A DNA stretch of 64,000 bases from Phycisphaeraceae bacterium (lineage in GTDB: Bacteria > Planctomycetota > Phycisphaerae > Phycisphaerales > Phycisphaeraceae). A program made the position numbers and the translations under genes. Positions 1 to 15,450 of the stretch are shown one piece after another (position 1 is the first letter of the stretch; each line of letters starts with the position of its first letter). Under the pieces are notes generated by a model that was not told where the DNA came from, searched no databases, and was given only the letters and a program-made list of their open reading frames with translations. Location: NCBI GenBank assembly GCA_028284155.1, contig JANQSF010000016.1, positions 1-64,000 of the forward strand. The letters run 5' to 3'.

Positions 1-432
1 GCCCCGCGACGGGGAAACCCACCGCCGGGCCTTGAAAGCCATGACCAGGCCGCGACCGTGCAACGCCCACCGTGGAACAACAGGTCGCGGCCTTTGAACG
101 CCATGCGGCGACAGATTGCCGCAGTTGATTAGATGATCACCTGGAGGCGCACGTGCGCAGCCGATCACAAACACGCAGTTACCTCTACACCCCGCACCGA
201 GAGTCCAGCCACCTTTCTTGTGCGGGGTTTGCAACCCTACCCACGCGGGGGCGCTGCCCTGCACCCATCCACCGCGTGAGGTCCTTGACCGGGCACGGGG
301 CACGACGCCCCCTTGACCACACGGACGTCGGTGTGCCCGGCGTGGCAGCTTGACCGTCGCAATCGGCATGTCGGCAACGTAGCCGACGGCCTGACTGCAC
401 GGATGCAGTGATACCGCACGGACGCGGAAAGT
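1..432. other. Non-coding leader upstream of the Mu-like operon
   Basis: I see no convincing gene in this stretch; the short open frames here have no recognisable content. It contains an 11-base perfect inverted repeat (47-57 with 83-93, 25-base spacer) and two related direct-repeat-like words near 31-45 and 90-105 (both read roughly 'ccttgaa-gccatg'). Sitting immediately upstream of an HTH regulator and the transposase operon, it is the natural place for the element's operator/promoter and possibly its left end. No clear copy of the 14-base repeat found at the right side (11756-11812) is visible here, so the left terminus probably lies outside the window. Confidence 0.45.
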
Positions 433-960: not shown

Positions 961-983
961 CACCAAACCGCGAAGGAGCGCCC

Positions 984-1463
984 ATGTCCCCAACACTCGA
1001 AGCCCCCGCCGACCCGACGACCCCGCAACGCGCGAAGCGACGAACATCGACCCTACGCCGCGTACCGACGCGCGAGGTTGAGTCGACGCAACACTCCGCA
1101 GTGCGGACGGTCGCGCGCACCGAGTGCGAGTCGTGCGGGCGCACGTTCCTGGCGACGGTCATCGCGACACCGACACGTCGCGAGTTGGACGATTGGCAGA
1201 AACACGACGCCGACTTCCGGCATTGGCTCAAGCGGATGGTCGAGCACCACAAGTACCAGCTGCCGGCCGGGTGCGGACACACCGACTTCCGCGCCCTGTA
1301 CTGCCCGACGTGCGACGACGTGTTCGTCCGTCTGGTCGCGTTCGGCGGCGACGGCAACGTCCACCCCGTCGACGCGGGCGGATTCGTGATCGCCGACCGC
1401 GACATGATCGACCGCTTCCTGCGCAACCACCCGCAGGCGAAGGAGGCGATCGAGGCATGCTGA
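984..1463 (+). CDS. Zinc-ribbon-like hypothetical phage protein
   Basis: 159 aa, starting at an ATG preceded by AAGGAGCG. The N-terminal ~45 residues are basic, Pro/Thr-rich and probably disordered. Two CxxC knuckles (C48-x2-C51 and C107-x2-C110), plus a Cys-Gly-His in between, suggest a zinc ribbon that binds one metal ion. The start lies 24 bases after the HTH gene and the stop overlaps the next ATG (ATG at 1457, TGA at 1461), so it is translationally coupled in the operon. No enzymatic motif is visible. I do not recognise the family; a nucleic-acid-binding or adaptor role is only a guess from the zinc ribbon and context. Confidence 0.6.
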   Translation: MSPTLEAPADPTTPQRAKRRTSTLRRVPTREVESTQHSAVRTVARTECESCGRTFLATVIATPTRRELDDWQKHDADFRHWLKRMVEHHKYQLPAGCGHTDFRALYCPTCDDVFVRLVAFGGDGNVHPVDAGGFVIADRDMIDRFLRNHPQAKEAIEAC

Positions 1464-1678
1464 AACGCTTCGCGATCTTCATGCTGGCGCTCGCGCTGAT
1501 CGTCTTCGTCGCGTTCGCGTTCAACCTGGTCGTCGGCCTTGTGCTGGCGCTGCTGCTGGCGATGGCCATGCCCGCCGACCCGGAAGACGTGAACCGCACG
1601 CGCAAGCGTGACCCGACGCCGCTGGTGATGAACAACCAGGGCGACTACCAAAAGCACTACCACGGGGAGCGGCTTTGA
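1457..1678 (+). CDS. Small inner-membrane protein
   Basis: 73 aa. Residues about 4-38 are almost entirely hydrophobic (two closely spaced or one long membrane segment), followed by a charged C-terminal tail of about 35 residues. The ATG overlaps the stop of the upstream gene, and its own TGA overlaps the TTG start of the transposase, so it is embedded in the operon by coupled translation. In phages such small membrane proteins are often holins or exclusion proteins, but nothing here decides between those. Too short to assign to a family by eye. Confidence 0.5.
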   Translation: MLKRFAIFMLALALIVFVAFAFNLVVGLVLALLLAMAMPADPEDVNRTRKRDPTPLVMNNQGDYQKHYHGERL

Positions 1679-3873
1679 GCGACTCGGCGCGACAGTTCGT
1701 TGACCTTGGCGCCGTCGACTACGACGCGTGGGTCCCACTGTCCGAGGCGGCGCAGAAGCTGGACCGCAGCGTCGGCCAGTTGCGTCGTCAGTGCAAGGAC
1801 AAGCTCGCGCCGCGCGGCGTTGCGTTTCACATGGCGCCGAACGGCGGCGGGCAGCGTGTGTGGCACATCCACGTCTCGCACGACGCGCGCCTGCTGCGTG
1901 GCCCGGTCGGCGACGCGAACACCGCGCCCGACCTGAGCATGTACACGCAGCAGCAACGCGCCGACACGTTTGCGCGTGTCGCCTGCGTCGAAGCGTTCCG
2001 CCGCGCACGGCGCGGCGACGACCCGCTGTGCGTCGGACCCGCCACACAATGGATGGGCACGCTGATCGCCCATCTGCGTCGTGAACACACGACGATCAAG
2101 ATCAGCCAGACGTCGTTGTATGAGTGGCATCGCAAGTACAACTGTCCGGCCGACACGGTCAAGCTGATCGACCACCGCGGAGGCGACCGACGCAGTGGGC
2201 AGCAACACAAGCGCCGCGCCCGTTGCATCGAAACCTTCAAGGGATATTACCTCGACCAGCGCGGCACGACGCTGCGCGAGGCGTGGCGTCAGACGCGTGC
2301 CTGGGCACAGGCCAACGGCCTGGCCGACGCGTGGGTGTCCGAGGCGACCTGCGGGCGCAAGCTCGACGAGTGGATTCCGGCCGAAGTCCAACTGATGCAC
2401 CGCGACCCGTCCCGCTGGCGAGACACTTGCGCACCGCGCATCGTCGGCGCGCACGCGGACCTCGAACCGGGTCGCATCTGGATGGGCGACCACGGCCAGT
2501 GCGACTTCTTCTGCTGGTGGCAGAACACGCTGATCCGACCGTGGGTCACGGTCTGGATGGACGGAGGAACGCGTCGCGTCGTCGCGGCCGTGCTGTGCGT
2601 GTCGCCGTCGAGTGACACCATCCTTGCCGCGTTCGGCGACGGCATGCGCGACCCGGCCAACATGGGCGGGCCGACACGCGTCCACGTCGACAACGGCAAG
2701 GACTATCAGGCGTTGACGTTCCACGGTCAGACCAGGACCGAACGGCGGCGCACGATCATCAAGCGCGGCGAGCACTGCGACGAGCAGCAGTTCGCCGGTA
2801 TCTTCGCCTGGCTCGGTATCGAAGTGGGTTTCTCACTGCCGTACAACCCGACGGGTAAGAGCTTCGTCGAGCGGTGGTTCGGGACGCAGCGCGCGCAGTT
2901 CGACAAAACCTTCTGGACCTACCGGGGCAAGGACACGACCAGCAAGCCCGAGCAGCTGGCCGACATCCTCAAGCGCGGGCGCGACATCCCGACGTTCGAG
3001 CACGTCGCCGCGCGGCTCAAGGACTTCGTCGCCGCGTACAACGCCAACGCCGACCATCAGATGCAAGAGTTGCGCGACCACCCCGGCCCCGACGGGATGC
3101 TCTCGCCCGACCAGGCGATGCAGCAATGGGCGGCGCGCATGATCCCCAAGGACCCGGGCGCGATCGACCTGGTCTGCCGTCACTGGCACAAGCCGGTCAC
3201 CGTCGGCAAGCACGGCGTGCGCATCGCGCCGCTGGGTGTGCCGCTCAGCTACGACAACCGGCACGACCTGTCGCTGGCCGAGTACCGCGCGCCCGCGCGG
3301 AAGGGCAGGAAGAAGACGCGCGTGCTCGTCTCCTACGACCCGGCCGATATGCGCACCGTCCAGGTGTGGACGCTCGACGGCCGGTTCGTCTGCGTCGCCG
3401 AGTCGCCGCTGTTGGGTGACTTGCCCGATGCCGTGACCCGAGACCACCTCGCGCAGCAGCAGCGCGAAAACCGTCAGTACGCCAAGGCGCTCAAGGCCGT
3501 GCGTCAGTTCGCCCCGCGCGAGTACCGCTCGGCGGCCGAGCTGATCCGCGACGCCGTCGTCGCGGAGCACGTCGAGGAACGACTGGCCGCCACCGGCACG
3601 GACGACGCGACGCCCGGTCCGTTGAAGCTGCGTCAAACGGCCGTCGACGGTCAGTCGAGCGCCGCTCAACGCGCGCACGCGCAGGCGAACGCGCGGCCGG
3701 TCCTGAGCATGGCCGGACGACATCCGTCGTCGACGCCCAAGGCCGGGCCGCTGTCACGCAGGCCGCTGATTCAGGGTGGCCGGTCGCCGCGCGTGTCGAC
3801 GGCGGGGCGCTCGATTCCACGGGTGAACATTCAGCAACTGACACGGCCCAAGGACCAAGAGGACGAGTCATGA
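1675..3873 (+). CDS. Mu-type DDE transposase (MuA homologue)
   Basis: 732 aa, about the size of Mu A (663 aa). It would bind the element ends and catalyse strand cleavage and transfer as a tetramer. The N-terminal part carries a Mu-type DNA-binding HTH ('VPLSEAAQKLDRSVGQL'). The catalytic core follows with D272 in 'IWMGDHGQCD' (cf. the Mu 'INGDG' motif), D339 in 'VHVDNGKDY' and E399 in 'GKSFVERWFG', giving an intact DDE triad. A beta-barrel-like domain follows (about 490-570), and a basic, low-complexity tail (about 640-732) corresponds to the MuB/ClpX-contacting region of Mu A. The start is TTG at 1675, overlapping the previous TGA (TTGA) and preceded by GGGGAGCGG. The stop overlaps the MuB start. 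Looks intact; high confidence in family, inference on activity. Confidence 0.93.
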   Translation: MSDSARQFVDLGAVDYDAWVPLSEAAQKLDRSVGQLRRQCKDKLAPRGVAFHMAPNGGGQRVWHIHVSHDARLLRGPVGDANTAPDLSMYTQQQRADTFARVACVEAFRRARRGDDPLCVGPATQWMGTLIAHLRREHTTIKISQTSLYEWHRKYNCPADTVKLIDHRGGDRRSGQQHKRRARCIETFKGYYLDQRGTTLREAWRQTRAWAQANGLADAWVSEATCGRKLDEWIPAEVQLMHRDPSRWRDTCAPRIVGAHADLEPGRIWMGDHGQCDFFCWWQNTLIRPWVTVWMDGGTRRVVAAVLCVSPSSDTILAAFGDGMRDPANMGGPTRVHVDNGKDYQALTFHGQTRTERRRTIIKRGEHCDEQQFAGIFAWLGIEVGFSLPYNPTGKSFVERWFGTQRAQFDKTFWTYRGKDTTSKPEQLADILKRGRDIPTFEHVAARLKDFVAAYNANADHQMQELRDHPGPDGMLSPDQAMQQWAARMIPKDPGAIDLVCRHWHKPVTVGKHGVRIAPLGVPLSYDNRHDLSLAEYRAPARKGRKKTRVLVSYDPADMRTVQVWTLDGRFVCVAESPLLGDLPDAVTRDHLAQQQRENRQYAKALKAVRQFAPREYRSAAELIRDAVVAEHVEERLAATGTDDATPGPLKLRQTAVDGQSSAAQRAHAQANARPVLSMAGRHPSSTPKAGPLSRRPLIQGGRSPRVSTAGRSIPRVNIQQLTRPKDQEDES

Positions 3874-5027
3874 ACGACGCCCCGACACCGGACGGATCGC
3901 GGGCGACGGAACGCCTGGTCGAACTCGACCGCATTCAAAACGAGGCACGGATGCTTCCACAAGGCAAGAAACTGACCGCCGCGCAGATCAGGGGGGTGCG
4001 CGCGGCTTTCCAAGACTTCAACGAGGGCGACAACGGCGGCTGGCGCTACCCGCTGGCGCGTGTGGCCAAGGACATCGACCGGTCGCCCAGCGTCGTCAGC
4101 CAGTGGCTGGCGGACAAGTACAAGGGCGATGTCGACTCGGTCACGCGGCTGATCAACTTGTGGATCGAGCGCGTGTCCCGCCGCGAGCAATCGCAACACG
4201 TCAACACGTACGTCGAGACGTGGGTGTGCGAAGAGATCGCGGGCTGGGTCCGTCACGCGGACAAGCGACAGAAGATGGCCGCGATCGTGGCGCCCGCCGG
4301 GTCGGGCAAGGACATGATCATCAAGGTGCTCGCCGAGGAGATGGACGGGCACATCATCTATTGCGACCAGGACACGACCAGCCGCGAGCTGTTGAAGCTG
4401 ATCGCCGCCACGATCGGACTCAAGGTGACGCACGGATCGGCCAAGGCCATCCAGCGCAGCGTCGTCAACTCGCTCAAAGGCCGATCGACCATCCTGTTCC
4501 TGAACGAGGCGCACCAGTTACATCAGCGGTGCGCGTCCACCGTGCGGTCGCTGTTCGATCAGACGGGCGTGCCGATCATCATGATCGGCGCAAGCGAGAT
4601 ATTCAGCTTCGTCGACGACCGCGTCAACGGCGGCGGTCAGTTCGCGCGGCGTTGCCTGATGATCGACATCAACAAGCGGCTCGGTCGCACGGCCGACCCG
4701 GACAACCCGGAGCGCCTGCGCGAGCGACTCTGTTCACCGGCCGAGATACGCCGCTTCCTGGCGATGAAGAAGATTCGCCTGGCCGACGACGACGTGCTGT
4801 CGCTGCTGACCGCGTTGGCCTGCGCGGACGGGTCGGGCGCGATCGACCTGGTCAACGAACTGGTCGAGACCGTCGTCGAGTGGTGGCCGGGCGAGTTGGT
4901 CACACGCGAAAACGTGCTCGAAGTCCTGGCCTCCATCCGCCTGGGCGAGCACGACACGCTCATGAATCAAGCCCACCTATTCCTGCCCGACATCGAGGGC
5001 GAGATCGCCGCCGCGCTCAGCGCTTGA
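3870..5027 (+). CDS. MuB-type AAA+ target-capture ATPase
   Basis: 385 aa. MuB-like ATPases coat target DNA as filaments, deliver it to MuA and give target immunity. Residues about 55-90 form an N-terminal lambda-repressor-like HTH ('LARVAKDIDRSPSVVSQWL'), as in Mu B. The ATPase core has a Walker A at 141-148 (A-P-A-G-S-G-K-D, with Asp where Ser/Thr is usual) and a Walker B at 208-215 (I-L-F-L-N-E-A-H, with Asn where Asp is usual). A C-terminal helical domain follows. The ATG overlaps the transposase stop (ATGA), as expected for an A-B pair. The two non-canonical ATP-site residues are odd but lie in an otherwise well-preserved frame. Family call is firm; whether it still hydrolyses ATP is open. 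Confidence 0.9.
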   Translation: MNDAPTPDGSRATERLVELDRIQNEARMLPQGKKLTAAQIRGVRAAFQDFNEGDNGGWRYPLARVAKDIDRSPSVVSQWLADKYKGDVDSVTRLINLWIERVSRREQSQHVNTYVETWVCEEIAGWVRHADKRQKMAAIVAPAGSGKDMIIKVLAEEMDGHIIYCDQDTTSRELLKLIAATIGLKVTHGSAKAIQRSVVNSLKGRSTILFLNEAHQLHQRCASTVRSLFDQTGVPIIMIGASEIFSFVDDRVNGGGQFARRCLMIDINKRLGRTADPDNPERLRERLCSPAEIRRFLAMKKIRLADDDVLSLLTALACADGSGAIDLVNELVETVVEWWPGELVTRENVLEVLASIRLGEHDTLMNQAHLFLPDIEGEIAAALSA

Positions 5028-5069
5028 CGACCGACCGACACTCCCTCTCACCGTCAAGGACGACGACCC

Positions 5070-5477
5070 ATGACCGACAACAACGCCCTGCACTACGAAG
5101 CGGTCCTCGCCGCGTTCCGCGCTTACCGGTCGTGCGCCCGCCCGACGGCCGCGCGTTCGTGTTGCAAGGCTGTCGTCCACGAGCGCACGACGTACATCCG
5201 GCTCAAGCCCGACGGCCCAGCCTGGTCGTTGGTCGGTGAACACCTACGGCGCGTCCCGACGGCCACGTCCCGACGCGTCACGACCGTCTGGATCAAGCAT
5301 GCGTGGGGGCTGTGCAAGCTCGGCCTGATCACGCGCGAACAGCGAGACGGATTCGAGGCGGTCATCCGCGAGCGGATCGAGGCTCAGTCGCGCAAGGACA
5401 ACCTGGCCTATCTCAGGGCCGACGCGCGCCGCATCGGCTGCACCGTCATCGACCCGCAGGAGGAGGACGCGTCTTGA
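5070..5477 (+). CDS. Hypothetical protein of the Mu-like element
   Basis: 135 aa. Not recognised. Alpha-helical appearance, basic, with several Cys near the N terminus (C22, C31, C32) but no regular metal-binding spacing. It follows the MuB gene by 42 bases, in the interval where Mu-like phages keep small early accessory genes (kil, gam and similar), and it is coupled to the next gene, whose TTG start overlaps its TGA. Start is ATG at 5070 with a weak purine stretch (AAGGACGACG) upstream. No function proposed. Confidence 0.55.
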   Translation: MTDNNALHYEAVLAAFRAYRSCARPTAARSCCKAVVHERTTYIRLKPDGPAWSLVGEHLRRVPTATSRRVTTVWIKHAWGLCKLGLITREQRDGFEAVIRERIEAQSRKDNLAYLRADARRIGCTVIDPQEEDAS

Positions 5478-6373
5478 CCACGGCGACGGCCGACAACCCG
5501 ATCGTCAGGTCGCTGGCCAACTGGTACGGCAGTAACCGGTCGTGCGGTCGGCGCGCCGCCGCCGAGTGCGCGGGCTCGCGGTTCATCGCCGTGCCCTTCG
5601 CGGGCGGGATGAGCGAACTCATCCACATGAACGCGCGCACGATCGACGTCAACGACAAGCACAAGCACCTGATCAACATGGCGCGGGTGATCGCAGACCC
5701 CGTCAACGGGCCGAAGCTCTACCGGCTGCTGCGCCGTATCGCTTACCACGTCGACGCGCTACGCCGCGCCCAGTCCAACTGCAAGCACCGGGACGCGATG
5801 GACGCGTCGCTGCTCTTCCCCAGCGGTGACACGCCGTCCGCGCTGTCGGATGACGAGTCGATCGCCTGGGCGTTGGACTACTTCGTCTGCTGCTGGATGG
5901 GCCGTGCGTCGAGCGCCGGGACGAAGCGCGAGTTCGACGCGTCGTTCTCGATCCGGTTCGACGCCAACGGCGGCGACTCGGCGACGCGCTTCGCCAACGC
6001 GGTGCGCTCGCTGCCGAAGTGGCGCCGCGTCTTCCGCTCTTGCACGTTCACCGATATGGACGGCTTCGAGTTCATCGAGCGCGTCAGCGACGACGGCAAG
6101 GAACTGCGCACGATCTATTGCGACGTCCCGTTCCCGGGGCCGGGCGACAAGTACAGCCACCCGTTTACGACGCGCGACCAGCGACACGTCGCCGAGTTGC
6201 TGGCGTCGTTTCAGAACGTGCGCGTCGTGTGCCGGTTCTACGACCACGCGCTGATCCGGGACCTCTACCCCGAGGACCGATGGAACTGGACGTTCCCCGA
6301 GGGAGGCAAGGCGCAGACGAACGACGGACGCCCCGAAGTCCTGCTGATCAACGGGGAGAGCTACATCTCATGA
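5474..6373 (+). CDS. D12-class DNA methylase-like protein, degenerate motif
   Basis: 299 aa. Resembles D12-class (Dam-like) N6-adenine methyltransferases: an SAM-binding motif-I equivalent at residues 42-48 (F-A-G-G-M-S-E, for the usual FxGxG) and 'TIDVNDKHKHLINM', matching the 'xNDxxxxLxNF' segment that follows motif I. At the place of the catalytic DPPY it has D217-V-P-F, so two of the four catalytic motif residues differ. The region usually forming the target recognition domain is present (about 75-200). The TTG start at 5474 overlaps the upstream stop (TTGA) and has AGGAGGA eight bases before it. The stop overlaps the next ATG. It could be an altered-specificity enzyme, an inactive DNA-binding relative or a decoy; the intact D12 enzyme further along (10271) makes loss of function plausible. 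Confidence 0.65.
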   Translation: MTTATADNPIVRSLANWYGSNRSCGRRAAAECAGSRFIAVPFAGGMSELIHMNARTIDVNDKHKHLINMARVIADPVNGPKLYRLLRRIAYHVDALRRAQSNCKHRDAMDASLLFPSGDTPSALSDDESIAWALDYFVCCWMGRASSAGTKREFDASFSIRFDANGGDSATRFANAVRSLPKWRRVFRSCTFTDMDGFEFIERVSDDGKELRTIYCDVPFPGPGDKYSHPFTTRDQRHVAELLASFQNVRVVCRFYDHALIRDLYPEDRWNWTFPEGGKAQTNDGRPEVLLINGESYIS

Positions 6374-7554
6374 GCCGCATCGAGTGGACCGACAAGTCGT
6401 GGAATTGCGTTCGCGCGCGACGGCGCGACACGGGCAAGGTCGGCACGCACTGCGTGAAGGTGTCGCGCGGCTGCGCCAACTGCTACGCCGAAAGCCACAA
6501 CCGGCGCATGCTGCCGCACGGCGGCACGGGTCTTAAGTACACGGCGGGCAACACGGACAAGGTCGACATCTTCATCGACGAGAAGGCGCTGCGCAAGCCG
6601 CTGCACTGGTGCGAGCCCCGTGACGTGTTTGTCTGCTCCATGACCGATCTGTTCGGTGAGTTCGTCAGCGACGAACAGATCGACCGCGTCTTCGCGATGA
6701 TGGCCCTGTGCCCGCAACACCGGTTTCAGGTGCTGACCAAGCGGCCGGAGCGCGCGGCGGCCTACCTCAACGGCATCGAGCACTACAACGGCGACCTCGG
6801 CGGCGCAGACGGCGGCGATCGGTTGAGTGCGGCGGCGGGCTGCCTTCTGGACGGCGGCTGGATTCACGGCAAAGGCAAACGCTACCGACGGCGGATCGAG
6901 CGGTTCATTACGGACGGAATCGGTGAGACGTGTGAGGACGACGAATACGAGCCGCGTCCGATCAAGTGGCCGCTGCCCAACGTCCTGATCGGAACGAGCG
7001 TTGAAGACCAGCAAGCCCTTATCAAGCGTCTCGCGTGGCTGATGAAGTGCCCGGCCGCCGTGCGGTTCGTGTCGGCCGAACCGTTACTGGGACCGATCGA
7101 GCTGCCGCCGGACAACTTGCGCGGTTACAGCGTCCATCCGATGCACGCGCCTGAGTGCGACGATTTCGGGTGCTCACCCGATTGCCCCGTCCCCGATTAC
7201 GAGCACGCCCCCAGTATTGACTGGGTCATCGTCGGTGGTGAGAGCGGCGCGGGTGCGAAGCCGTGCGCGGTGGACTGGATCGACGACATCATTGACGACT
7301 GCGTCGAAGCCGACGCTCCCGTGTTCGTCAAGCAGCTCGGCTCATTCCCCGTCGCGCTCGACGAAACCTTCTGCGACGACTGGCCGGGGCAGGGCGGGCA
7401 AGACGGACGGACGGAGTTCGACTTCGACGTGCCCGACCCGTGGCACTGCCGTTACCGGCTCAAGCACTCGAAGGGTGGCGATCCATCGGAGTGGCCCGAG
7501 CGTCTGCGAAGGCGCGAGCAACCAAAGGAGGCGCGCGATGTGTGTGCGGTGTGA
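6370..7554 (+). CDS. DUF5131 / phage Gp37-Gp68 family three-Cys protein
   Basis: 394 aa. Opens with 'MSRIEWTDKSWNCV', then the hallmark three-cysteine motif C28-x6-C35-x2-C38-Y-A, and later 'VLTKRPERAA', 'LIGTSVEDQQ', 'RFVSAEPLLGP' and 'WVIVGGESGAGAKP', all typical of the phage Gp37/Gp68 (DUF5131) family. The Cys arrangement resembles an iron-sulfur (radical-SAM-like) site. The family is common in phages and mobile elements and is sometimes encoded beside a three-Cys-motif partner protein (TcmP); I see no TcmP here. Biochemical role is unknown. An internal insertion (about 135-195, including 'GGADGGDRL' and a basic patch) lengthens it relative to short members. ATG overlaps the upstream stop. 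Confidence 0.85.
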   Translation: MSRIEWTDKSWNCVRARRRDTGKVGTHCVKVSRGCANCYAESHNRRMLPHGGTGLKYTAGNTDKVDIFIDEKALRKPLHWCEPRDVFVCSMTDLFGEFVSDEQIDRVFAMMALCPQHRFQVLTKRPERAAAYLNGIEHYNGDLGGADGGDRLSAAAGCLLDGGWIHGKGKRYRRRIERFITDGIGETCEDDEYEPRPIKWPLPNVLIGTSVEDQQALIKRLAWLMKCPAAVRFVSAEPLLGPIELPPDNLRGYSVHPMHAPECDDFGCSPDCPVPDYEHAPSIDWVIVGGESGAGAKPCAVDWIDDIIDDCVEADAPVFVKQLGSFPVALDETFCDDWPGQGGQDGRTEFDFDVPDPWHCRYRLKHSKGGDPSEWPERLRRREQPKEARDVCAV

Positions 7555-7717
7555 CCACTGCGGCGAGTGCTTCGCGTTCGACGACGTCGTCCACCACGAC
7601 GTGGATGAAGTCACTAACGGCATCGACGAAGTCTGCATCTGCCACGACTGCGCGCAATCGATCGAACACGAACTACCGGACATCCAACCCACCCAACACG
7701 CAGGAGCACAATCATGA
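7538..7717 (+). CDS. Small zinc-ribbon protein
   Basis: 59 aa. Two paired-Cys knuckles ('MCVRCDHCGEC' near the N terminus and 'CICHDC' near residue 40) predict a zinc-binding mini-domain. The ATG at 7538 is preceded by AAAGGAGG, a strong ribosome binding site, and lies 17 bases inside the end of the DUF5131 gene. Its stop overlaps the next ATG (ATGA at 7714). The good ribosome binding site and coupling on both sides support it being a real gene despite its size. Function unknown. Confidence 0.65.
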   Translation: MCVRCDHCGECFAFDDVVHHDVDEVTNGIDEVCICHDCAQSIEHELPDIQPTQHAGAQS

Positions 7718-8115
7718 ACGAAGCCGTCCAAGAGTTCGCCCGCCTGGCCCGACGCCGTCACGACCTGATGCAGCGACTGAACCAGGTCGAGAAGCTGATG
7801 GACAAACTGATGCCGCGATGCCGCAGGCACATGAAGAACAACGGGCTCAACCTCGTCAAGTCGCACGGCATGGAACTGGAGGTCGGCCACAGACTCAAGG
7901 TCAGCGGGACCAAGGACACGCCCGACATCACGCGCGCCATGTTGCCCGATCACGCGGACCTGATCGGTGTCAACTGGCCCGCGACGCTGGCGTTCGCCTC
8001 CAGGCACTACCGGGAGCACGGCGAACTGCCCGACGCGCTCAGCGACGTGCTCACGGTCAAGCGCAAGCCGGTCGTGACCGCCAAACGATGCGCGAAGAAG
8101 AAGAGGAAGAAGTGA
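7714..8115 (+). CDS. Basic hypothetical protein of the Mu-like element
   Basis: 133 aa. The first ~45 residues look like a coiled coil ('LARRRHDLMQRLNQVEKLMDKL'-type heptads) and the last 15 are almost all Lys/Arg. The middle part is rich in Asp/His and beta-like. Its place between MuB and a GemA-like gene is where Mu keeps gam, and a helical hairpin plus basic surface would suit an end-binding protein, but I see no sequence match to Mu Gam and do not assign it. Coupled to the upstream gene by ATGA. Confidence 0.55.
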   Translation: MNEAVQEFARLARRRHDLMQRLNQVEKLMDKLMPRCRRHMKNNGLNLVKSHGMELEVGHRLKVSGTKDTPDITRAMLPDHADLIGVNWPATLAFASRHYREHGELPDALSDVLTVKRKPVVTAKRCAKKKRKK

Positions 8116-8161
8116 CCCGAACGCGCGACCAACAGCCTCGCCAACTAATACCGAGTTGACC

Positions 8162-8731
8162 ATGTCCTGGAGCAACAAACAAAAGGGAATCGCCGCCCGC
8201 GCCTGCAAGGGCTGGATGGCGGACGAGCACCGTCGCATGATCCTCGGCTACGGCGAGTTCGGCGGCCGCGCGTTCTTTGATCGGAACGGCAACCGCTCAA
8301 AGGTCGCCAGCACAACATCGAAGCGCCTCACGCAGCGCGACTTCGAGTTGTTCATGTCGATCGTCGAAAGCTGCCGCGACCGGCCGGTTGAGGGTTTCTC
8401 GAAAAGGTATTGGGAGGAGCGGGCTAACGAGGGCACGCGGCGCCGCATGCGCTTCCACGTGCAGAAGCTGGCCAACACGCTTGAATTGACCTGCTATAGC
8501 GACGCCGACGCGCACCTGCCGGACAGCGACCGGCGTCGCGCGCTGGAGCCGCACGGCGTCGGGCTGCGCGGCTGGGTGCGGAACATGACGAACGGTCGTA
8601 CGGACGACCTGGACGACTGCGTCGAGGGTGAGCTGTACGCACTGGCCGAGGGCCTCAAGGCATACGGGCGCCGTCACGGGGTTCGTTGGCCGTCGGCGTC
8701 TTCGTCGCTAGCAGTGCTGTCACAACCGTAG
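8162..8731 (+). CDS. GemA/Gp16-like (DUF1018) protein, tentative
   Basis: 189 aa from the ATG at 8162 (an in-frame TTG lies two codons upstream). The first ~75 residues ('NKQKGIAARACKGWMADEHRRMIL' split over two helices, then 'SKRLTQRDFELFMSIVES') resemble the start of Mu GemA/Gp16, where a basic helix, a 'DDExYR'-like helix and a 'LTxxELxxVL' helix follow each other. The C-terminal part has no clear match. It follows the preceding gene by 46 bases. Its 3' end runs 58 bases into the convergent TIR gene, so either the cargo gene overlaps it or the C terminus was changed when the cargo arrived. Family assignment is by pattern only. Confidence 0.5.
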   Translation: MSWSNKQKGIAARACKGWMADEHRRMILGYGEFGGRAFFDRNGNRSKVASTTSKRLTQRDFELFMSIVESCRDRPVEGFSKRYWEERANEGTRRRMRFHVQKLANTLELTCYSDADAHLPDSDRRRALEPHGVGLRGWVRNMTNGRTDDLDDCVEGELYALAEGLKAYGRRHGVRWPSASSSLAVLSQP

Positions 8732-9960
8732 TAACGGCGCAAGCCGTCAATGACTTTTCGGTAACCGTCCCTATAGGACTTCTCGCTCGTGTCCCAATTG
8801 CTGAAGTCAATCACATTCTTCTTGGCGACTTGCCTCCACAGCACGGCTGACTCCGGCTGCTCACACTTGGCTTTCCAGTCGTCGTCGAGTGCAACGGGCA
8901 ACAGGACATCTCTCTCATTCTGTTTCTCTTTGCGTCGTGCGCGATCAAGTTCAAGCTCGACCCAATCGCTCCTGACGGACTCCCTTGAGAGCACCAGGAT
9001 CACCACATCGTTTAGGCGGATCGCGTCGAGCAACTGGCGTTCGACCGGACCCGCCACCATGTGGTGCTTGTCGCGCCACGTGTTGACACCGTCGGCGCAG
9101 AGAGACGATTCCAGCTTGTCCACGAACGCGTCATTCGCCCGCGAGTATGAGATGAACGCTCCGCCAACCAGGATCACGCCTTTCGTCCGTTTCTCGAAAA
9201 TCTCGTTGTTGATCTCCGACACCTCCAATCCTGTCAGGTCCGTCTCGAACAACCTGGTGGCGGCGACCTCCCAAGGAGTCAAGCCACATCGACTCAGGAA
9301 CCATCCTGGCAATTGCCCACGCGACCGCGCGAGAGTGGATCTATCGATCGTACATGGTCCAGAGATCTTCAAATCGTGGGCGTTCAACTCGCACTGGATG
9401 TCCGACGTGCGTAGGTCCATCTCGACAAACGTGGTGCCCGCCAGATATGCCCCCTTGAACTTGGTGTGGTCTGCAGAGCAGTCACTGAACGACGTCCCGA
9501 AGAGTTTCGAGTGTGATAGATCAGCCCACGCCAGATCAGTGCGTCTGATCTGCGCTGCGCGCAAGTCGGCCATGTCGAACCGTGCCCGACTCGCGCTGAC
9601 ATCGTGCATATGTCCCCCATCTAGAGTGGCCTTCCGGAGGTCGGCACCGCACAGATTGCAATTCACAATCGACGCGGACTCAAGTATTGCTGAGTTGAGA
9701 TTTGCCGACTCCAGAGAGGTGTGGTTGATCGTGGCAAACTGCAGATACGCACCTGTTAAGTCGGCCCCAGTTAGCTCAAGAAAACAAAGATTAAACCTCG
9801 CAAGATTCGCATCCCGCAGCTGGGCACCGTGTAAGTCTACAACCGGATCGGCTCGCCCGCTGGCCAGTTTGGCCGTGATTTCTTTGCTGCGACGCTTGTT
9901 CCACTCATCGCGAGCGCGGTATCCACTGCGCAACAACGTCAGGGCTTCGTCCCGGTTCAT
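8674..9960 (-). CDS. Pentapeptide-repeat / TIR-domain fusion, putative defence cargo
   Basis: 428 aa. Residues about 41-190 are tandem pentapeptide repeats ('A[D/N]Lxx' units such as ADLTGAYLQ, ADLRKATLD, ADLSHSKLF), which fold as a right-handed quadrilateral beta-helix. A linker of about 70 residues leads to a TIR domain (about 266-405): the box-1-like 'GGAFISYSRANDAFV', the BB-loop region near 'TWRDKHHMVAG', and 'SDWVELELDRA', where W333 and E337 match the Ser-x-Trp-x3-Glu pattern holding the catalytic Glu of bacterial NADase TIRs. Bacterial TIR proteins commonly deplete NAD+ during phage infection, so an abortive-infection role is a reasonable inference. It is the only gene of the element on the minus strand, is visibly less GC-rich than its neighbours and lies between coupled plus-strand genes: the signature of a cargo (moron) insertion. 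Confidence 0.88.
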   Translation of the reverse strand: MNRDEALTLLRSGYRARDEWNKRRSKEITAKLASGRADPVVDLHGAQLRDANLARFNLCFLELTGADLTGAYLQFATINHTSLESANLNSAILESASIVNCNLCGADLRKATLDGGHMHDVSASRARFDMADLRAAQIRRTDLAWADLSHSKLFGTSFSDCSADHTKFKGAYLAGTTFVEMDLRTSDIQCELNAHDLKISGPCTIDRSTLARSRGQLPGWFLSRCGLTPWEVAATRLFETDLTGLEVSEINNEIFEKRTKGVILVGGAFISYSRANDAFVDKLESSLCADGVNTWRDKHHMVAGPVERQLLDAIRLNDVVILVLSRESVRSDWVELELDRARRKEKQNERDVLLPVALDDDWKAKCEQPESAVLWRQVAKKNVIDFSNWDTSEKSYRDGYRKVIDGLRRYYGCDSTASDEDADGQRTP

Positions 9961-10270
9961 GTGCGCATGTTACCGCGCCCCTGGTGGCCGGGCTATTGAG
10001 TTGTACGTAATGCCGATTTACCGGCGGCGCAAGGACGCGCCGACCCGCAACCGAAAGGACTCAGACATGCGGAACCACTGACAACACAACCAACGCGCAC
10101 AAGCGACCACCCCCAGGAGCTGACACTCCCGGAGGTGGTCTGACCGTCACCATCCTTGCTTGCACAAGGACAGCTGGGCTATGGCCTATGTCGTTCATCC
10201 CGAGGCGCGACTTAACGCGATCGTCACGTTGTGCGCGATCGCGGCGCGCCGTTGCAGCAAGGTGGGTCCG
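9961..10270. other. Non-coding gap between cargo gene and methylase
   Basis: About 310 bases with no supported gene. It must hold the promoter of the minus-strand TIR gene and a start signal for the plus-strand methylase. The only strong structure is the hairpin listed separately at 10105-10140. In-frame codons upstream of the methylase (from TTG 10160 or ATG 10181) could extend it, but that sequence does not look like part of the D12 fold. Confidence 0.4.
10105..10140 (+). promoter_or_regulatory. Strong hairpin upstream of the D12 methylase gene
   Basis: A 15-bp stem with two mismatches (GACCACC at the base pairing with GGTGGTC) and a six-base loop CTGACA. There is no T-run after it on the plus strand, so it does not look like a simple intrinsic terminator. 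It could be an operator, an RNA attenuator or a bidirectional transcription block protecting the cargo gene. Confidence 0.5.
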
Positions 10271-11152
10271 ATGAAAAAGAAAGTCTCCCCCGTGCCGTGG
10301 TTTGGGGGCAAGTTCTCGATGCGCAAGAAGCTGTTGCCGCTCTTCCCCGACCACCACATCTACGTCGAGGTCTTCGGCGGCGGCGCCGGGCTGCTGTTCG
10401 CGAAGGAACCGGCGCCCGTCGAGGTCTACAACGACCTGGACAGCGGCCTGGTCAACTTCTTCCGCGTGCTGCGTGACAAGGACAAGTGCGCGCATCTCTA
10501 CATGAAGCTGGGGCAGACGCCGTACAGCCGCGAGGAGTACGAGCACTTCCGTCATACGTGGCGGCAGTGCGACGACCCGGTCGAGCGCGCTTACCGATGG
10601 TTCATGGTCGCGCGCATGGCGTTCTCCGCGAAGTTCGGCAACAACATGTCGATGGTGGTCGGTCACTCGACGCGCGGCATGGCCGCCAGCGTCTCGCGCT
10701 GGATGCACGGCCACGCGGCGATCGCCGACGTGCAGGACCGCTTCATGCGCTGCCAGGTCGAGCAGGACGACTTCCGCGCCATCTTCCCGCGCTACGACAC
10801 ACCCGACACGCTCTTCTACGTCGACCCGCCATACGTCACCGACACGCGGCGGGGCGGCCAGTACACGCACGAACTGACCGACGACGACCACCGCGACCTG
10901 GTCGAGCTGTTGCTCAACATCGAGGGGATGGCGCTGCTGTCCGGCTACGACCACGCGCTCTACAAGCCGTTGTCGCGTGCGGGCTGGTCGAAGCGGAAGT
11001 TCGACGTGTACTGCGCGGCGGCGGGCAAGAGCCGCGCGACCGGTCTGCAGGGAGCGGGCAGTCTCAAGGGCAAACAGGAGCGCGTCGAAGTGGTGTGGGT
11101 CTCGCCGTCGGCACGGAAGCGATTGAGCAAACGACCCCGCAAGAAGACATGA
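10271..11152 (+). CDS. D12-class DNA adenine N6-methyltransferase
   Basis: 293 aa, typical length for Dam/D12 enzymes. Begins 'MKKKVSPVPWFGGKFSMRKK', the standard opening of the family. SAM-binding motif I is at 35-40 (F-G-G-G-A-G), followed by 'VYNDLDSGLVNFF', and the catalytic motif is an intact D185-P-P-Y. 'LLSGYDHALYKPL' and the C-terminal 'ERVEVVWVS' are also family features. It transfers a methyl group from SAM to adenine N6. In phages such solitary methylases protect against host restriction. Start chosen at 10271 because it gives the canonical N terminus and has AAGGTGG upstream. The stop overlaps the next ATG. Confidence 0.92.
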   Translation: MKKKVSPVPWFGGKFSMRKKLLPLFPDHHIYVEVFGGGAGLLFAKEPAPVEVYNDLDSGLVNFFRVLRDKDKCAHLYMKLGQTPYSREEYEHFRHTWRQCDDPVERAYRWFMVARMAFSAKFGNNMSMVVGHSTRGMAASVSRWMHGHAAIADVQDRFMRCQVEQDDFRAIFPRYDTPDTLFYVDPPYVTDTRRGGQYTHELTDDDHRDLVELLLNIEGMALLSGYDHALYKPLSRAGWSKRKFDVYCAAAGKSRATGLQGAGSLKGKQERVEVVWVSPSARKRLSKRPRKKT

Positions 11153-11595
11153 CACGACCCAACGACCAGACCGCGCTCGAAGAACGCAAGGCCGAATTGC
11201 GCGGGCTGTTGATGCGCCGACGGCGGCGGAAGAAGGGGGACAAGCCCAGGCCGATCTCGGCGTACCGGATCGCGCTGGCGCTGGGTATCCGACCCGGTGG
11301 TTCGAGGGAGAGCAAGAGGCGTGGCGCCCGCAGGCTGATCAAGATGATGCGCGACGAAGACCACCCGATCGCCCACGGCCCGGCGGGCTATTGGTGGTCC
11401 GAGACGGTGGGCGATCACCAGGCGTATCGGCGGCAACGCCGCCGCGTGGCGATGGCCAACCTGGTCGCCGAAGCGGCCGACCGACACTCGCCCCAGGCGG
11501 CCGCTGTGGCCGGTCAGATGGGCCTGTTCGGCGAGGGCGGGCCGACGATTGAGAACCCGTCGACGGCCGTTCAAACGGCCGTTGAATGCGGATAG
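11149..11595 (+). CDS. Winged-helix-like phage protein, last gene of the operon
   Basis: 148 aa. Highly basic N terminus ('LLMRRRRRKKGDKPRP'), then a helix-turn-helix-like region ('SAYRIALALGIRPG...ARRLIKMMRD') ending in 'HPIAHGPAGYWWSETVGDH', which resembles the wing and C-terminal part of the winged-helix domain found in phage regulatory or replication proteins ('...IcS...GYyla...e'). The rest is Ala-rich and helical. ATG overlaps the methylase stop (ATGA). Two hairpins follow directly after its TAG, so it closes the operon. DNA binding is likely; the target is unknown. Confidence 0.6.
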   Translation: MTRPNDQTALEERKAELRGLLMRRRRRKKGDKPRPISAYRIALALGIRPGGSRESKRRGARRLIKMMRDEDHPIAHGPAGYWWSETVGDHQAYRRQRRRVAMANLVAEAADRHSPQAAAVAGQMGLFGEGGPTIENPSTAVQTAVECG

Positions 11596-11657
11596 CTGGC
11601 CGGGTGGCCAGCGACAACCGAACCGCCGAAAAGGCCGCGCCAGAACGGCCGTTTTTT
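11595..11657 (+). terminator. Tandem hairpins ending in a T-run
   Basis: Immediately after the TAG of the last element gene there is GCTGGCC-GGGT-GGCCAGC (11595-11612), then GGCCG-8 bases-CGGCC followed by G and six T (11633-11657). The second has the classic form of a rho-independent terminator on the plus strand and would end the long Mu-like operon. A further direct repeat ACGGCCGTT occurs twice just before the stop. Confidence 0.7.
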
Positions 11658-11755
11658 CGTGCGCGCACCGGGCGGTTTTTGACAGCGCGCGACCAGCGCG
11701 CGGCGCGCGGCTTGGGGTCGCGCGCGATCGCCGCCAGGGTGCGATGAGCGCGTCC

Positions 11756-11812
11756 GCTTTCCCGTTTTGCTCGTCACACCGCCGCCCGATCCGGGGTGGC
11801 TTTCCCGTTTTG
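11756..11812. repeat. Two 14-base direct repeats, candidate MuA end-binding sites
   Basis: GCTTTCCCGTTTTG occurs at 11756-11769 and again at 11799-11812. Read on the minus strand (inward from the presumed right end) it is CAAAACGGGAAAGC, which differs by one base from AAAACGCGAAAGC of the phage Mu right end as I remember it. Repeated transposase-binding sites at the ends are a feature of Mu-like elements. The position, after the last element gene and before the first chromosomal gene, fits. The exact terminal dinucleotide and target duplication cannot be fixed without the left end. Confidence 0.5.
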
Positions 11813-11895
11813 ATTGGCGGCCGTTCTGGCCCGTAACTGTTGCGCTCCTCGCCTCTTCCCGCCTCCCCCCTGAGATTCCCTGTTTGCTGGAGGTT

Positions 11896-12171
11896 TTACA
11901 GCGGCAGGTTCCGTCTTGCCCGCCCCGTGTCAGGATTTACCAGAAATGTAATTGGATGCCAGCGTTCAGGGTCAATCGCACATTCGAATGAGACGAACCA
12001 ATTGCCCACGAGGTCAGAACGAACACCCGGCGGCGTTGGGCCTGGAATCTGACTTGCCACCGCATCGAAGTACTCGTCGTCGACGAACTCGACCCTCTCT
12101 AGCTCGCCAATAGCTAAACCACGGCGCCGAGCAAGCCTGCGCGCAATCTCTACGGCTTCATACGCGTTCAT
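11896..12171 (-). CDS. Hypothetical protein
   Basis: 91 aa, unrecognised. Starts 'MNAYEAVEIARRLARRRG' and has a compact alpha/beta look with 'WFVSFECAIDPERWHPITFLVN'. It is the first gene on the chromosomal side of the Mu-like module and runs toward it, with its stop about 85 bases from the last 14-base repeat. The product ends 'RARRNLPL', so the 3' end could have been set by the element's insertion; this is speculative. Confidence 0.5.
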   Translation of the reverse strand: MNAYEAVEIARRLARRRGLAIGELERVEFVDDEYFDAVASQIPGPTPPGVRSDLVGNWFVSFECAIDPERWHPITFLVNPDTGRARRNLPL

Positions 12172-12267
12172 CGTGTTTGTCCGCTATTGGGAACCAGTCG
12201 TGAACCGGTTGATCATATGTGTGTGGACTGTGGGAATGAGTGGCAGAATCGATGCCTCACCAGAGCT

Positions 12268-13749
12268 TCAATCTTCAGGCCGTTCGCCAGCAGGGGCCAT
12301 CTTGACCAGCTTCGGGTCGAAGCGGGCCAGCGTTTCGACCAGGTCTTCCTGGGCGGCCATGACCTCGTCGATCTTCTTGTAGACGAATGGCACCTCGTCG
12401 AGCCCGGCGCTGAGCAGTCGCACGCCGCGGTCTTTCAGGTACTGATTGACCTGCGACCACGTGTACGTCTGCTTGGCCTGCTTTCGGCTCATCACTCGGC
12501 CTGCGCCGTGCGAGGCTGAACGCAGGCTCGACGGATCGCCCTTGCCGCGCACGACGTAGCAGGGGCTGGCCATCGAGCCGGGGATGACGCCGAGTTCGCC
12601 TTCGCTTGCGGGCGTTGCGCCCTTGCGGTGGACAATGACCTCGCGTGGTTCGGCCGAACTGTTGTCGTCGCTGCTTCCGGGGGCATGCGATTCGCGCCAC
12701 GCGAAGTTGTGGTGGTTCTCGACGCCCGCGAGCGCCTCCGCGCCGAGGTTCTTCAGCACGTGCTTGTGAATCATCTCGTGGTTGGCGTGCGCGTAACGAC
12801 CCATGAGCTGCATCGCAGCCCAGTATTCCTGACCCTCGTGACGGTCGAGGTCGAGCCAGGCCAGGTGGCGCAGCTCGCGCGGCAGTTGCGGGTGCAGGTC
12901 CATCGCCAGCTTCGAGTAGTGGTTCGCCACGGCCGCGCCCGCGCCCCGGCTGCCCGAGTGCGACAACAGCGCGAGGTATTCGCCCGCGGAATCGAGACCC
13001 AGTGCTTGGGCGCCCGCCTCGTCCACCGTGAACACACCGAACTCGACAAAGTGGTTGCCCGAACCGCTCGTGCCGAGTTGTTCGTGCGCCTTGCTCTTGA
13101 GCGTGCGCGTGATGGGCGTGACGTTCCAGTCTTCGTCGAGCACGTCGTGCTCGCGGCGTTTGACGCCGTGCGGGTCGCCGCGCTTGCCGAACGCCGCGCC
13201 GATGCCGAACTGCGTCTCGCGCTCGATCGCGTTAATCAGCCGGTCGGTCTGCGATTCGAGCGCCTTGGCCGGCAGGTCGAGCACGGTCAGCTTCATGCGG
13301 CAGGCGATGTCGACGCCGACGGCGTAGGGGATGACGGCGTTGTCCGTCGCCAGCACGCCGCCGATCGGCAGGCCGTAGCCCAGGTGCGCATCGGGCATCA
13401 GCGCGCCGCGCACCGCCACGGGCAGGTGGCAGGCGTTGCGCATCTGTTCGACCGCCTGCGGCTCCAGGTCGTCGCCCCATTGTTTCCAGTCGACCGGCTC
13501 GTCGCGCGGCTCTGCCTGCACGTCGCCGGCGTTCGCGGCGGCCTGTTGGCTGCGCGCGATCGCCTGCGCCAATTCGCCGAAGTGCTCGTCGTCCCGGTAG
13601 GCGTCCGGGTCGGCCACGATCGCCTCGAGCTTGGCCTTCACCTCGTTCGGCTTCATGCCCGTCGCGTCGCGCACGTCGGCCGCGAGCCACTTGGCGGCCT
13701 TCGTCAGGCTCGGCGGGATGCCCAGTTTTTCAAGTTGACGCGCTTTCAT
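12268..13749 (-). CDS. rtcB: RtcB-type RNA ligase
   Basis: 493 aa from the ATG at 13749 (an in-frame ATG at 13767 is the alternative). RtcB joins 2',3'-cyclic-phosphate or 3'-phosphate and 5'-OH RNA ends using GTP and Mn2+, in tRNA splicing or RNA repair. Family signatures: 'MPDAHLGYGLPIGGVLA', 'DIACRMK', 'GTSGSGNHFVEFG', 'LLSHSGSRGAG', 'NHHNFAW', 'VHRKGATPA' and 'SASHGAGRVMSR', with H414 as the histidine that takes GMP. Metal-binding Cys and His are present. It is longer than E. coli RtcB (408 aa), mostly through an N-terminal ~85-residue extension. Monocistronic; no archease or RtcR neighbour is seen. Confidence 0.95.
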   Translation of the reverse strand: MKARQLEKLGIPPSLTKAAKWLAADVRDATGMKPNEVKAKLEAIVADPDAYRDDEHFGELAQAIARSQQAAANAGDVQAEPRDEPVDWKQWGDDLEPQAVEQMRNACHLPVAVRGALMPDAHLGYGLPIGGVLATDNAVIPYAVGVDIACRMKLTVLDLPAKALESQTDRLINAIERETQFGIGAAFGKRGDPHGVKRREHDVLDEDWNVTPITRTLKSKAHEQLGTSGSGNHFVEFGVFTVDEAGAQALGLDSAGEYLALLSHSGSRGAGAAVANHYSKLAMDLHPQLPRELRHLAWLDLDRHEGQEYWAAMQLMGRYAHANHEMIHKHVLKNLGAEALAGVENHHNFAWRESHAPGSSDDNSSAEPREVIVHRKGATPASEGELGVIPGSMASPCYVVRGKGDPSSLRSASHGAGRVMSRKQAKQTYTWSQVNQYLKDRGVRLLSAGLDEVPFVYKKIDEVMAAQEDLVETLARFDPKLVKMAPAGERPED

Positions 13750-13867
13750 GCGGCGATTGTATGACAACCGCGCGCGTCCGCTCGATCGGAATCACCAAGA
13801 CCACCACGCCACGCCCCCACGCACAGCGTCACTCGGCGCGACTGCACGCACTCGGAGAAAAGAATTG

Positions 13868-14055
13868 GAACGCAGAGAGCGCAGAGGACGCAGAGAACGC
13901 AAAGATGATGGGCGGGGTCAAGGCAGGGGAAGGCGGCCCTTCCGGGGGCGGGGTCGCCGCTAAACGGCGCTTCGATCTGTATTGGCTTTCCGGTCGGTCG
14001 TTCTCAACACTCTTGTCATCTTCGCGCCTCTTGCGCCTCCGCGCTCTTTGCGTTC
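13868..14055. repeat. Long imperfect inverted repeat of GCAGAG-type motifs
   Basis: Arm one (13868-13906) is a run of 'GAACGCAGAGAGCGCAGAGG'-like words. Arm two (14018-14055) is its approximate reverse complement, 110 bases away, followed by a CTT-repeat tract (about 14057-14078). No gene lies in the 300-base gap between rtcB and the hydrolase gene. GCAGAG-rich intergenic repeats of this type are, to my knowledge, widespread in planctomycete genomes. The structure could fold in RNA or act as a bidirectional terminator. Confidence 0.6.
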
Positions 14056-14082
14056 ACTTCTTCTTCTTCTTCTTCTTCAGAG

Positions 14083-15450
14083 TCACTTGGCCCTGACAAT
14101 ATCACGCCCCGCGCGCAGCCTTGCCATCACGACCGGCACGGCCGGCGGGACGCGCTTGCTCGGACTGGTCCAGCAGTTGGTCACGATGTCGGCGTGCGAC
14201 GCGTCGAGCAGGACGAAGTCGGTCACACCCTTGAGTCGGGTCGAGCGCACGGTCACGACGCCGTCGCCCAGGTCGCCACTGACTTCCTTGGCCGCTGTGG
14301 CCAGCGCTTCGGCCATGCGGTCGCTGATGTGGCAGTAGCGTCGCATCCAACGCACGCCCGCGTCGATACGTTGTGGCGTGATCTCCTTGAGCCGTCCGGC
14401 CACGACCGTCATCCGCACGTACTTCGCGTGCGGCCGGGCGTTGAGGCGGAGCAGGAACTCGCTGCGTGGCTGCAGGTCAATGCGTGCCTCGCCCAGCCCG
14501 TCGAAGATCGCGCCTTGGACGGATGCGGTCTTGCTGAACACCGCCCGCTGGGCCTGCTCGCGCACCTCGGACATCACGCCCAGCTTCGCGCACCGCGAGC
14601 CGTGGTTCGGCGGCGCGAGCATGACCAAATGTTCGACCTGCGGCAGTCGGCTGTCGCCGCGCGCGTCGCCTTTGTAGTAACGCGCGTTGGTCAACGCCTC
14701 GCGGGCCAGCAGCGCGCCCATGCTGTGCGTCACGATGCTCACCCGCTCGACCCCGCGGTGGTGCAGCCGGGCCAACTCGTCAACCAGAAACCTGGTCGAC
14801 TCAGCCAGGCTCTGGTCGTTGGGGTATGTCAACTCGCATGCGGTGAGTTTGTCGTTATGTAGCTCTTCGACCAACTGCGGCCACATCCCGCCGCCGTCGT
14901 CAAGGCCGTGCACCAACACGACGGCGTGGTCGGTTTCCTTCAAGCGGTCGATCGACACGTCGCCGTTCGGCGTCACCCAGACCAGCCCGTACTTGCGCCG
15001 TTCTTCCTCTGCCTTGTCAGGCCACTTCTTCGCCGCGTACTTGCGCAGCTTGCCGAGCAGCCGCTTCTGGTCGCGGCGCACCTTGATGCGGTCGAACTCG
15101 ACCAGCACGCGGTCGTCGTTGACGCGGAGCGTGAGGTAGTTGTTCGTGATGAGCTTGAACGCTTCGAGCTTGGCTCGCCCAGCTACGCCTTTGACCTTGA
15201 TCCGCCAGGAGACGTGGTCGCGCACCCAATCGCCGTTCAGCCCGCTGCGGTCGAACGCCGCGCCCAACATTCGGCCGACGTGCAACCGACCGTTGTCGAG
15301 CTTGACGGTGAATCGCTCGTACCGGTCTTCATAGGGGATGCCGTTGATCGTTCGCGGGTGGGCATGCACGCGGCCGACCAAGCCGCCGAGCAACGCGAAC
15401 ATGGCCAGCAGAGGAACAAGCCACATGGTCCAGCGGGTTTGCTTGGGCAT
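14083..15450 (-). CDS. Secreted alpha/beta hydrolase (lipase-like)
   Basis: 455 aa. A signal peptide is clear (hydrophobic core 'LVPLLAMFALLGGLVG', cleavage near 'VHA-HP'). The catalytic domain begins near 165: 'DHAVVLVHGLDDGGGMW' supplies the oxyanion-hole HG motif, 'VSIVTHSMGALLAREAL' the nucleophile elbow (THSMG, for the usual GxSxG) and 'LLDASHADIVTN' a plausible catalytic His. 'MLAPPNHGSRCAK' is typical of PGAP1/triacylglycerol-lipase-like hydrolases. The region before residue 160 is a beta-rich extension without match. Probable exported esterase or lipase; substrate unknown. Confidence 0.8.
   Translation of the reverse strand: MPKQTRWTMWLVPLLAMFALLGGLVGRVHAHPRTINGIPYEDRYERFTVKLDNGRLHVGRMLGAAFDRSGLNGDWVRDHVSWRIKVKGVAGRAKLEAFKLITNNYLTLRVNDDRVLVEFDRIKVRRDQKRLLGKLRKYAAKKWPDKAEEERRKYGLVWVTPNGDVSIDRLKETDHAVVLVHGLDDGGGMWPQLVEELHNDKLTACELTYPNDQSLAESTRFLVDELARLHHRGVERVSIVTHSMGALLAREALTNARYYKGDARGDSRLPQVEHLVMLAPPNHGSRCAKLGVMSEVREQAQRAVFSKTASVQGAIFDGLGEARIDLQPRSEFLLRLNARPHAKYVRMTVVAGRLKEITPQRIDAGVRWMRRYCHISDRMAEALATAAKEVSGDLGDGVVTVRSTRLKGVTDFVLLDASHADIVTNCWTSPSKRVPPAVPVVMARLRAGRDIVRAK

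Follow-up and report, generated by a model that had tools for sequence, protein, structure and literature searches.

A pentapeptide-TIR gene as candidate anti-phage cargo of a Mu-like planctomycete prophage

The pentapeptide-TIR gene and its product

The DNA analysed here (the window) comprises the first 64,000 nucleotides of contig C68 in a Phycisphaeraceae draft genome of 7.2 Mb in 161 contigs. The following features lie towards its left end:

1–99, no strand: overlap (100% identity) with C95 and C130, contigs on which phage late genes or related DNA lie
433–960, forward: repressor-like HTH gene (phrog_3949 transcriptional repressor, 1.5e-5)
1675–3873, forward: MuA-like transposase (phrog_310, 2.7e-79; Pfam Mu-transpos_C)
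3870–5027, forward: MuB-like AAA ATPase (phrog_296, 1.4e-34)
5474–6373: second methylase-like ORF (phrog_56, 4.4e-18), without a Pfam match
6370–7554: DUF5131 gene in the phage early region (Pfam, 1.6e-62; weakly similar to radical SAM mobile pair protein A)
8162–8731, forward: GemA-like gene (ORF 8156–8731), bordering the slot on its left (73% identity to the C19 sibling; weak Pfam support)
8674–9960, reverse: pentapeptide-repeat/TIR gene, an intact ORF of 428 aa with an ATG start (Pfam and AlphaFold2 model)
9841–9960, reverse: N-terminal helical domain, residues 1–40 (two helices in the model; also in pentapeptide proteins without TIR)
9391–9840, reverse: pentapeptide beta-helix, residues 41–190, 30 units (Pfam, unit count, model and fold matches)
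9166–9390, reverse: conserved helical linker, residues 191–265 (alignments and model)
8722–9165, reverse: TIR domain, residues 266–413 (Pfam TIR_2; closest enzyme folds SPARTA and SARM1)
8950–8964, reverse: W333 to E337 codons, WxxxE with the putative catalytic glutamate (alignments, AbTIR comparison)
8697–10006, no strand: variable slot, DNA not in common with sibling prophage L030 (homology breaks at 8696 and returns at about 10007)
10007–10180, no strand: conserved, mostly non-coding block right of the slot (85.6% identity to L030 over 10019–10216)
10181–11152, forward: Dam-type DNA methylase (Pfam MethyltransfD12, 6.8e-17)
11152–11595, forward: p12, the last early gene (71% identity in L030; also in L034, L036, L062, L139 and L143), with no Pfam family
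11596–11733, no strand: right end region of the prophage (L030 homology stops at about 11730–11733)

The pentapeptide-TIR gene is real and intact. Its product matches both Pfam Pentapeptide (1e-20; 73.3 bits against a cut-off of 20.2) and TIR_2 (1.5e-20; 74.4 bits against a cut-off of 28), and no NCBIfam family up to its cut-off. AlphaFold2 returned a model with a pLDDT of 86.8 and a pTM of 0.66 when supplied with 21 relatives (pLDDT 33.5 from the single sequence alone), in which two N-terminal helices are followed by the beta-helix, the helical linker and the TIR domain. The possibility of a chance open reading frame is ruled out by the two Pfam domains and the high-confidence model. Among the matches listed from a viral structure library, none convincingly covers both domains. 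A promoter scan of 8000–11200 detected no promoter-like site, including any for lysogen expression, and Rfam had no match within window positions 1–15000.

The fusion of a TIR domain to a pentapeptide beta-helix, as claimed by a sequence-only reading of this DNA, is confirmed by Pfam, the model and the fold matches. Within the rod, 28 of the 30 five-residue units match the simple small/hydrophobic pattern, and Pfam, model and fold comparisons agree on the right-handed quadrilateral beta-helix of five-residue units that characterizes pentapeptide repeat proteins. Structural comparison places it close to known pentapeptide proteins, with Z scores of about 19–25 (about 20–21 for QnrB1 and MfpA).

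The predicted TIR fold is closest to those of NAD-cleaving TIRs: in structural comparisons of the model, it aligns with SPARTA (8i87_G; Z 19.7, 1.8 Å RMSD, 135 residues aligned, ~22% identity) and SARM1 (9mw2_A; Z 17.9, 2.0 Å RMSD, 130 residues aligned). The TIR domains of Hydra TRR-2 (Z 17.5, 2.3 Å RMSD, 123 residues aligned) and MyD88 (Z 16.8, 3.0 Å RMSD, 133 residues aligned) also match, and therefore the fold alone does not show catalysis. The glutamate within WxxxE that is catalytic in NAD-cleaving TIR enzymes corresponds here to E337. The W333/E337 pattern is present at the positions previously proposed: the best solved TIR by sequence is AbTIR, whose Trp and Glu align with W333 and E337, and both residues are conserved in 22 of 22 rows of our alignment A5. 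In an earlier alignment, A1, E337 was found in all eight rows and W333 in seven, the exception being the L047 copy. Since the TIRs of animal TLRs, which are not NADases, have WxxxE as well, the pattern is by itself weak evidence of catalysis.

The Mu-like carrier and its variable slot

The early half of the element encodes, in order, the HTH repressor-like, MuA-like, MuB-like, methylase-like, DUF5131, GemA-like, pentapeptide-TIR, Dam-like methylase and p12 proteins. C95 ends, and C130 begins, with a sequence identical to window bases 1–99, which looks like an assembly-graph overlap. On C95, genes for a terminase (phrog_5909, 2.7e-36) and a portal protein (phrog_2662, 9e-26) belong to a lengthy series of genes that share one strand, opposite to that of the early genes in the window; C130 has DNA in common with C95. 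The related elements L034 and L035 show the same order, in which the late genes and the repressor/MuA/MuB side point in opposite directions. The overlap with contigs bearing terminase and portal genes, together with this shared order, indicates that the window carries the early half of a temperate phage of the Mu type. The element, which combines MuA and MuB with phage structural genes, is accordingly a Mu-like prophage, of which the window holds the early region and C95 or C130 would be the partner contig. The Mu-like element recognized in the sequence-only reading is thus borne out and extended to a prophage. A free-standing transposon was considered and dropped on the evidence of the terminase and portal genes on the overlapping contig. 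The presence of the same 99 bases at the ends of both C95 and C130 is a hint of two related prophages or of an assembly branch. The prophage ends at about 11730 on the right, its left end lies on another contig, and a repeat search for the element ends gave no clear signal.

Two further descriptions hold in part. The name "GemA-like" is weakly supported: the window copy has no Pfam match, and its relative in L034 reaches PF06252 (GemA) only at an E value of 0.0049, below the cut-off. The pentapeptide-TIR gene was said to lie opposite to all other genes of the element; this is so for the early genes inside the window, but the late genes on C95 run in the same direction as it does.

Comparison with L030, a sibling prophage in the same genome, shows 75% identity over 8161–8696, 86% over 10019–10216 and 81% over 11155–11733. 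The 58-base overlap (8674–8731) with the 3′ end of the GemA-like gene, noted previously, is confirmed and is explained by the slot junction at 8696: the GemA-like frame runs on into cargo DNA for its final dozen codons. Both slot borders are found on one contig in seven elements (the window, L030, L034, L036, L062, L139 and L143, with the GemA-like gene of L036 assigned by eye), and the slot contents differ among them. In the related viral contig L143 the slot is empty and the GemA-like and p12 genes overlap; in three of the seven (the window, L030 and L036) it holds genes reversed relative to the early operon. The slot of L030 contains three genes in about 2.8 kb; a scan of the first and third showed a weak prepilin motif (0.0014) in the former and no more than a weak DUF1358 match in the latter. 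Relatives' slots hold small uncharacterised genes, pseudopilin-like genes, a PadR-like gene and a DUF6161 gene (AbiZ-like at only 2.3e-4). These comparisons support reading the stretch between the GemA-like gene and methylase/p12 as a variable cargo stretch, and the pentapeptide-TIR gene is an accessory gene in a variable prophage slot, as is seen for prophage defence cargo. A defence island in this slot is unsupported, with sibling slots mostly holding genes without a defence link.

Several observations concern the contents of related elements. The pseudopilin-like genes carried as cargo by L030 (12208–14276, reverse) are odd for a phage. Genes for an nSTAND1-LRR protein (L060, 1958–5185) and an NB-ARC-WD40 protein (L061, 13886–16463) directly follow the GemA-like genes of related elements, whose unclear limits kept them out of the slot count. 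A contig with another related element encodes a match to the candidate phage-defence family PDC-M30A (L064, 1445–2575, reverse; 2.5e-29).

The lower GC content reported for the gene stands: it has a GC of 0.570 and a GC3 of 0.685, the lowest among the window's gene calls, against a window mean GC3 of 0.863 (sd 0.034) over 39 calls, one of which is the 3′ part of the pentapeptide-TIR gene itself. By base composition the gene is thus foreign to its surroundings.

Relatives, phage-borne copies and a shared front module

A search with the single protein detected matches at 1e-15 in at least 9 of 397 genomes of the same class, and a search with a profile of alignment A1 detected matches at 1e-30 in at least 21 of 392 genomes of the same phylum, with some rows matching only over the repeats; both counts include the genome studied here and are lower bounds, as no more than four candidates per genome were scored in most cases. 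Scanning named genomes yielded 17 loci, distributed over Planctomycetota, Chloroflexota (including Anaerolineae), Dokdonia and a Falkowbacterium. Separate single-protein searches returned no match in the genome_contigs, viral_contigs and plasmid collections, and four records among annotated phages that match over the pentapeptide part only. Tandem arrays of four pentapeptide-TIR genes occur in an Anaerolineales genome (L123, 1392–6079) and in a genome of the planctomycete phylum (G660, contig C204, 43421–48690). Among 11 contig stretches around relatives other than the window, ten appear chromosomal by eye and one, L047, prophage-like.

The association of the fusion with mobile elements, on which the earlier proposal depended, is seen in L047 and in five IMG/VR contigs. 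Both domains are confirmed by Pfam in all five of these (L082, L083 and L131–L133); three further matches, L134–L136, cover the front part only and were left out of the count. Terminase and primase genes accompany the fusion in L082, and an integrase and primases in L083; for L131–L133 the phage label comes from the IMG/VR collection and gene calls. L047 encodes RecT, a RecE-like exonuclease and a tape measure protein. It also has two TIR genes, one for a TIR-TM protein at 6489–7316 (PADLOC, 2.5e-41) and one, at 9239–10423, for the pentapeptide-TIR copy that lacks the Trp of WxxxE. The search for the fusion in other MuA neighbourhoods gave a different result: the related MuA elements examined hold no other copy, and the other carriers are different phage types.

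In a tree of 39 rows, the seven phage rows need seven label changes, at least three of them forced by well-supported branches, and a shuffle test shows no clustering of phage rows, as expected for repeated captures. From this scatter and the forced changes, it appears that phages probably took up pentapeptide-TIR genes more than once. The window row sits on a long branch (1.57) with weak support around it, and a changed or relaxed function is therefore possible.

The front of the protein is found in other contexts. A search with a profile built from residues 1–40 also picks up pentapeptide proteins without TIR. One protein with the same front module (L040, 18294–19352), whose gene adjoins a pentapeptide-TIR gene, ends in an Ion_trans_2 domain (6.7e-13). 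In another (L111, 691–1932), the C-terminal stretch contains a TLGFGD motif, which we take to be a channel filter; it matches an NCBIfam potassium channel family at only 7.6e-4. A third gene (L041, 8336–9604) faces a pentapeptide-TIR gene in convergent orientation and encodes a protein whose tail seems to be membrane-bound and matches no Pfam family. One shared front joined to different killers would be expected if a sensor or scaffold is combined with an effector, although two or three cases are few. We put forward only tentatively the wider idea that planctomycetes and some other bacteria possess a modular immune family, in which the helical domain and pentapeptide rod would serve as sensor or scaffold for an interchangeable TIR NADase or ion channel, with tandem expansion in chromosomes and repeated capture by temperate phages for use against rivals.

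Proposed role and comparison with known systems

On balance, we lean towards the view that the gene is captured cargo of the Mu-like prophage, a single-gene system that would deplete NAD to act against phages or block superinfection. A temperate Mu-like planctomycete prophage may have captured a host pentapeptide-TIR gene into the stretch between the GemA-like gene and methylase/p12. The N-terminal helices and beta-helix would keep the protein inactive and detect either a target surface or some sign of infection; through the helical linker the signal would be passed on and TIR domains could assemble; and the assembled TIR would cleave NAD+, such that the cell stops or dies before a competing phage finishes, protecting the resident prophage and sister cells. 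Because it is reversed relative to the early operon, the gene could be transcribed in a lysogen in which the early genes are silent.

This anti-phage or superinfection reading draws on the presence of both domains, the NADase-like fold, the retained W333/E337, the prophage context, the slot, the low GC3 and repeated phage carriage. The fusion of the front module to an ion-channel domain also counts in its favour, as do the protective TIR systems of prophages and satellites described in the accessible text of Rousset et al. 2022 (PMC9122126). Counting against it are the mostly chromosomal location of relatives (10 of 11 stretches), the sibling slots, most of which lack defence-linked genes, the occurrence of WxxxE and the TIR fold in non-enzymatic TIRs, the long branch of the window copy, and the lack of a detected promoter for lysogen expression.

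The chromosomal relatives, sometimes in tandem arrays, and the sibling slots with genes unconnected to defence would also suit a passenger with a non-defence role: the protein could perform an internal planctomycete job, such as stress or death signalling via NAD+ products, and the phage copy could be accidental or a generally useful lysogen gene. We regard this as unlikely, as repeated independent phage carriage and the TIR-TM protein beside one copy fit conflict better than housekeeping.

Counter-defence is a more doubtful explanation. Made on phage entry or induction, the protein could block a host system, with the rod mimicking DNA or attaching to a protein of the host, in the way that Qnr and MfpA bind gyrase, or with the TIR acting as a decoy for host TIR systems. 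The rod does match the folds of QnrB1 and MfpA and the gene is located in the early region, but it is reversed relative to the early operon, its TIR retains residues a decoy does not need, and a net rod charge of −5 over 150 residues would be modest for a DNA mimic. We consider least probable a Thoeris-like arrangement, in which the TIR would not deplete NAD+ itself but would make a cyclic ADP-ribose messenger that acts on another protein, the effector: a Pfam ThsB_TIR match (2e-4, just above the cut-off) and a ThsB-type PADLOC match (5.2e-7) are in line with it, but the flanking genes scanned include no ThsA-like or other partner, and the closest folds, SPARTA and SARM1, belong to NAD+ depleters.

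This intact, single-gene, phage-borne case with an NADase-like TIR allows a direct test of a pentapeptide beta-helix as an infection sensor, and the cargo slot of planctomycete Mu-like phages could be mined for more such genes.

Several known systems share parts of this architecture. The TIR fold is held in common with SPARTA TIR-APAZ (Z 19.7, ~22% identity), which is an APAZ fusion triggered by Argonaute; here a pentapeptide rod takes the place of APAZ. AbTIR has the aligned Trp and Glu in common with the pentapeptide-TIR protein. The beta-helix rod is shared with Qnr, MfpA, HetL and other pentapeptide proteins (Z 19–25), none of which, among those listed, has a TIR, and the protein scores far below the NCBIfam cut-offs of those families. 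The Thoeris TIR gene thsB is paired with ThsA, whereas no ThsA-like PADLOC match occurs among the flanking genes scanned here. A literature search, with most subscription journals outside its reach, found no description of the function of a pentapeptide rod in a TIR protein.

Viral TIR genes have been reported as rare, with superinfection limitation proposed as a role (Iyer et al. 2022, PMC9503650). They likewise place a TIR domain in a viral genome; those described in the accessible text, where the word "pentapeptide" is absent, are from Firmicutes phages, typically beside a SLATT gene, and from algal giant viruses. The accessible text of Rousset et al. 2022 (PMC9122126) describes protective TIR systems in the hotspots of P2-like prophages and P4-like satellites, in which a TIR effector likewise occupies a variable slot of its carrier. 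The E. coli examples are a TIR-STAND-TPR protein and a TIR gene accompanied by membrane partners, whereas here a single predicted pentapeptide-TIR protein is carried by a planctomycete Mu-like phage. We thus rate prophage TIR defence as known in kind, and the pentapeptide-TIR architecture and its type of carrier as new.
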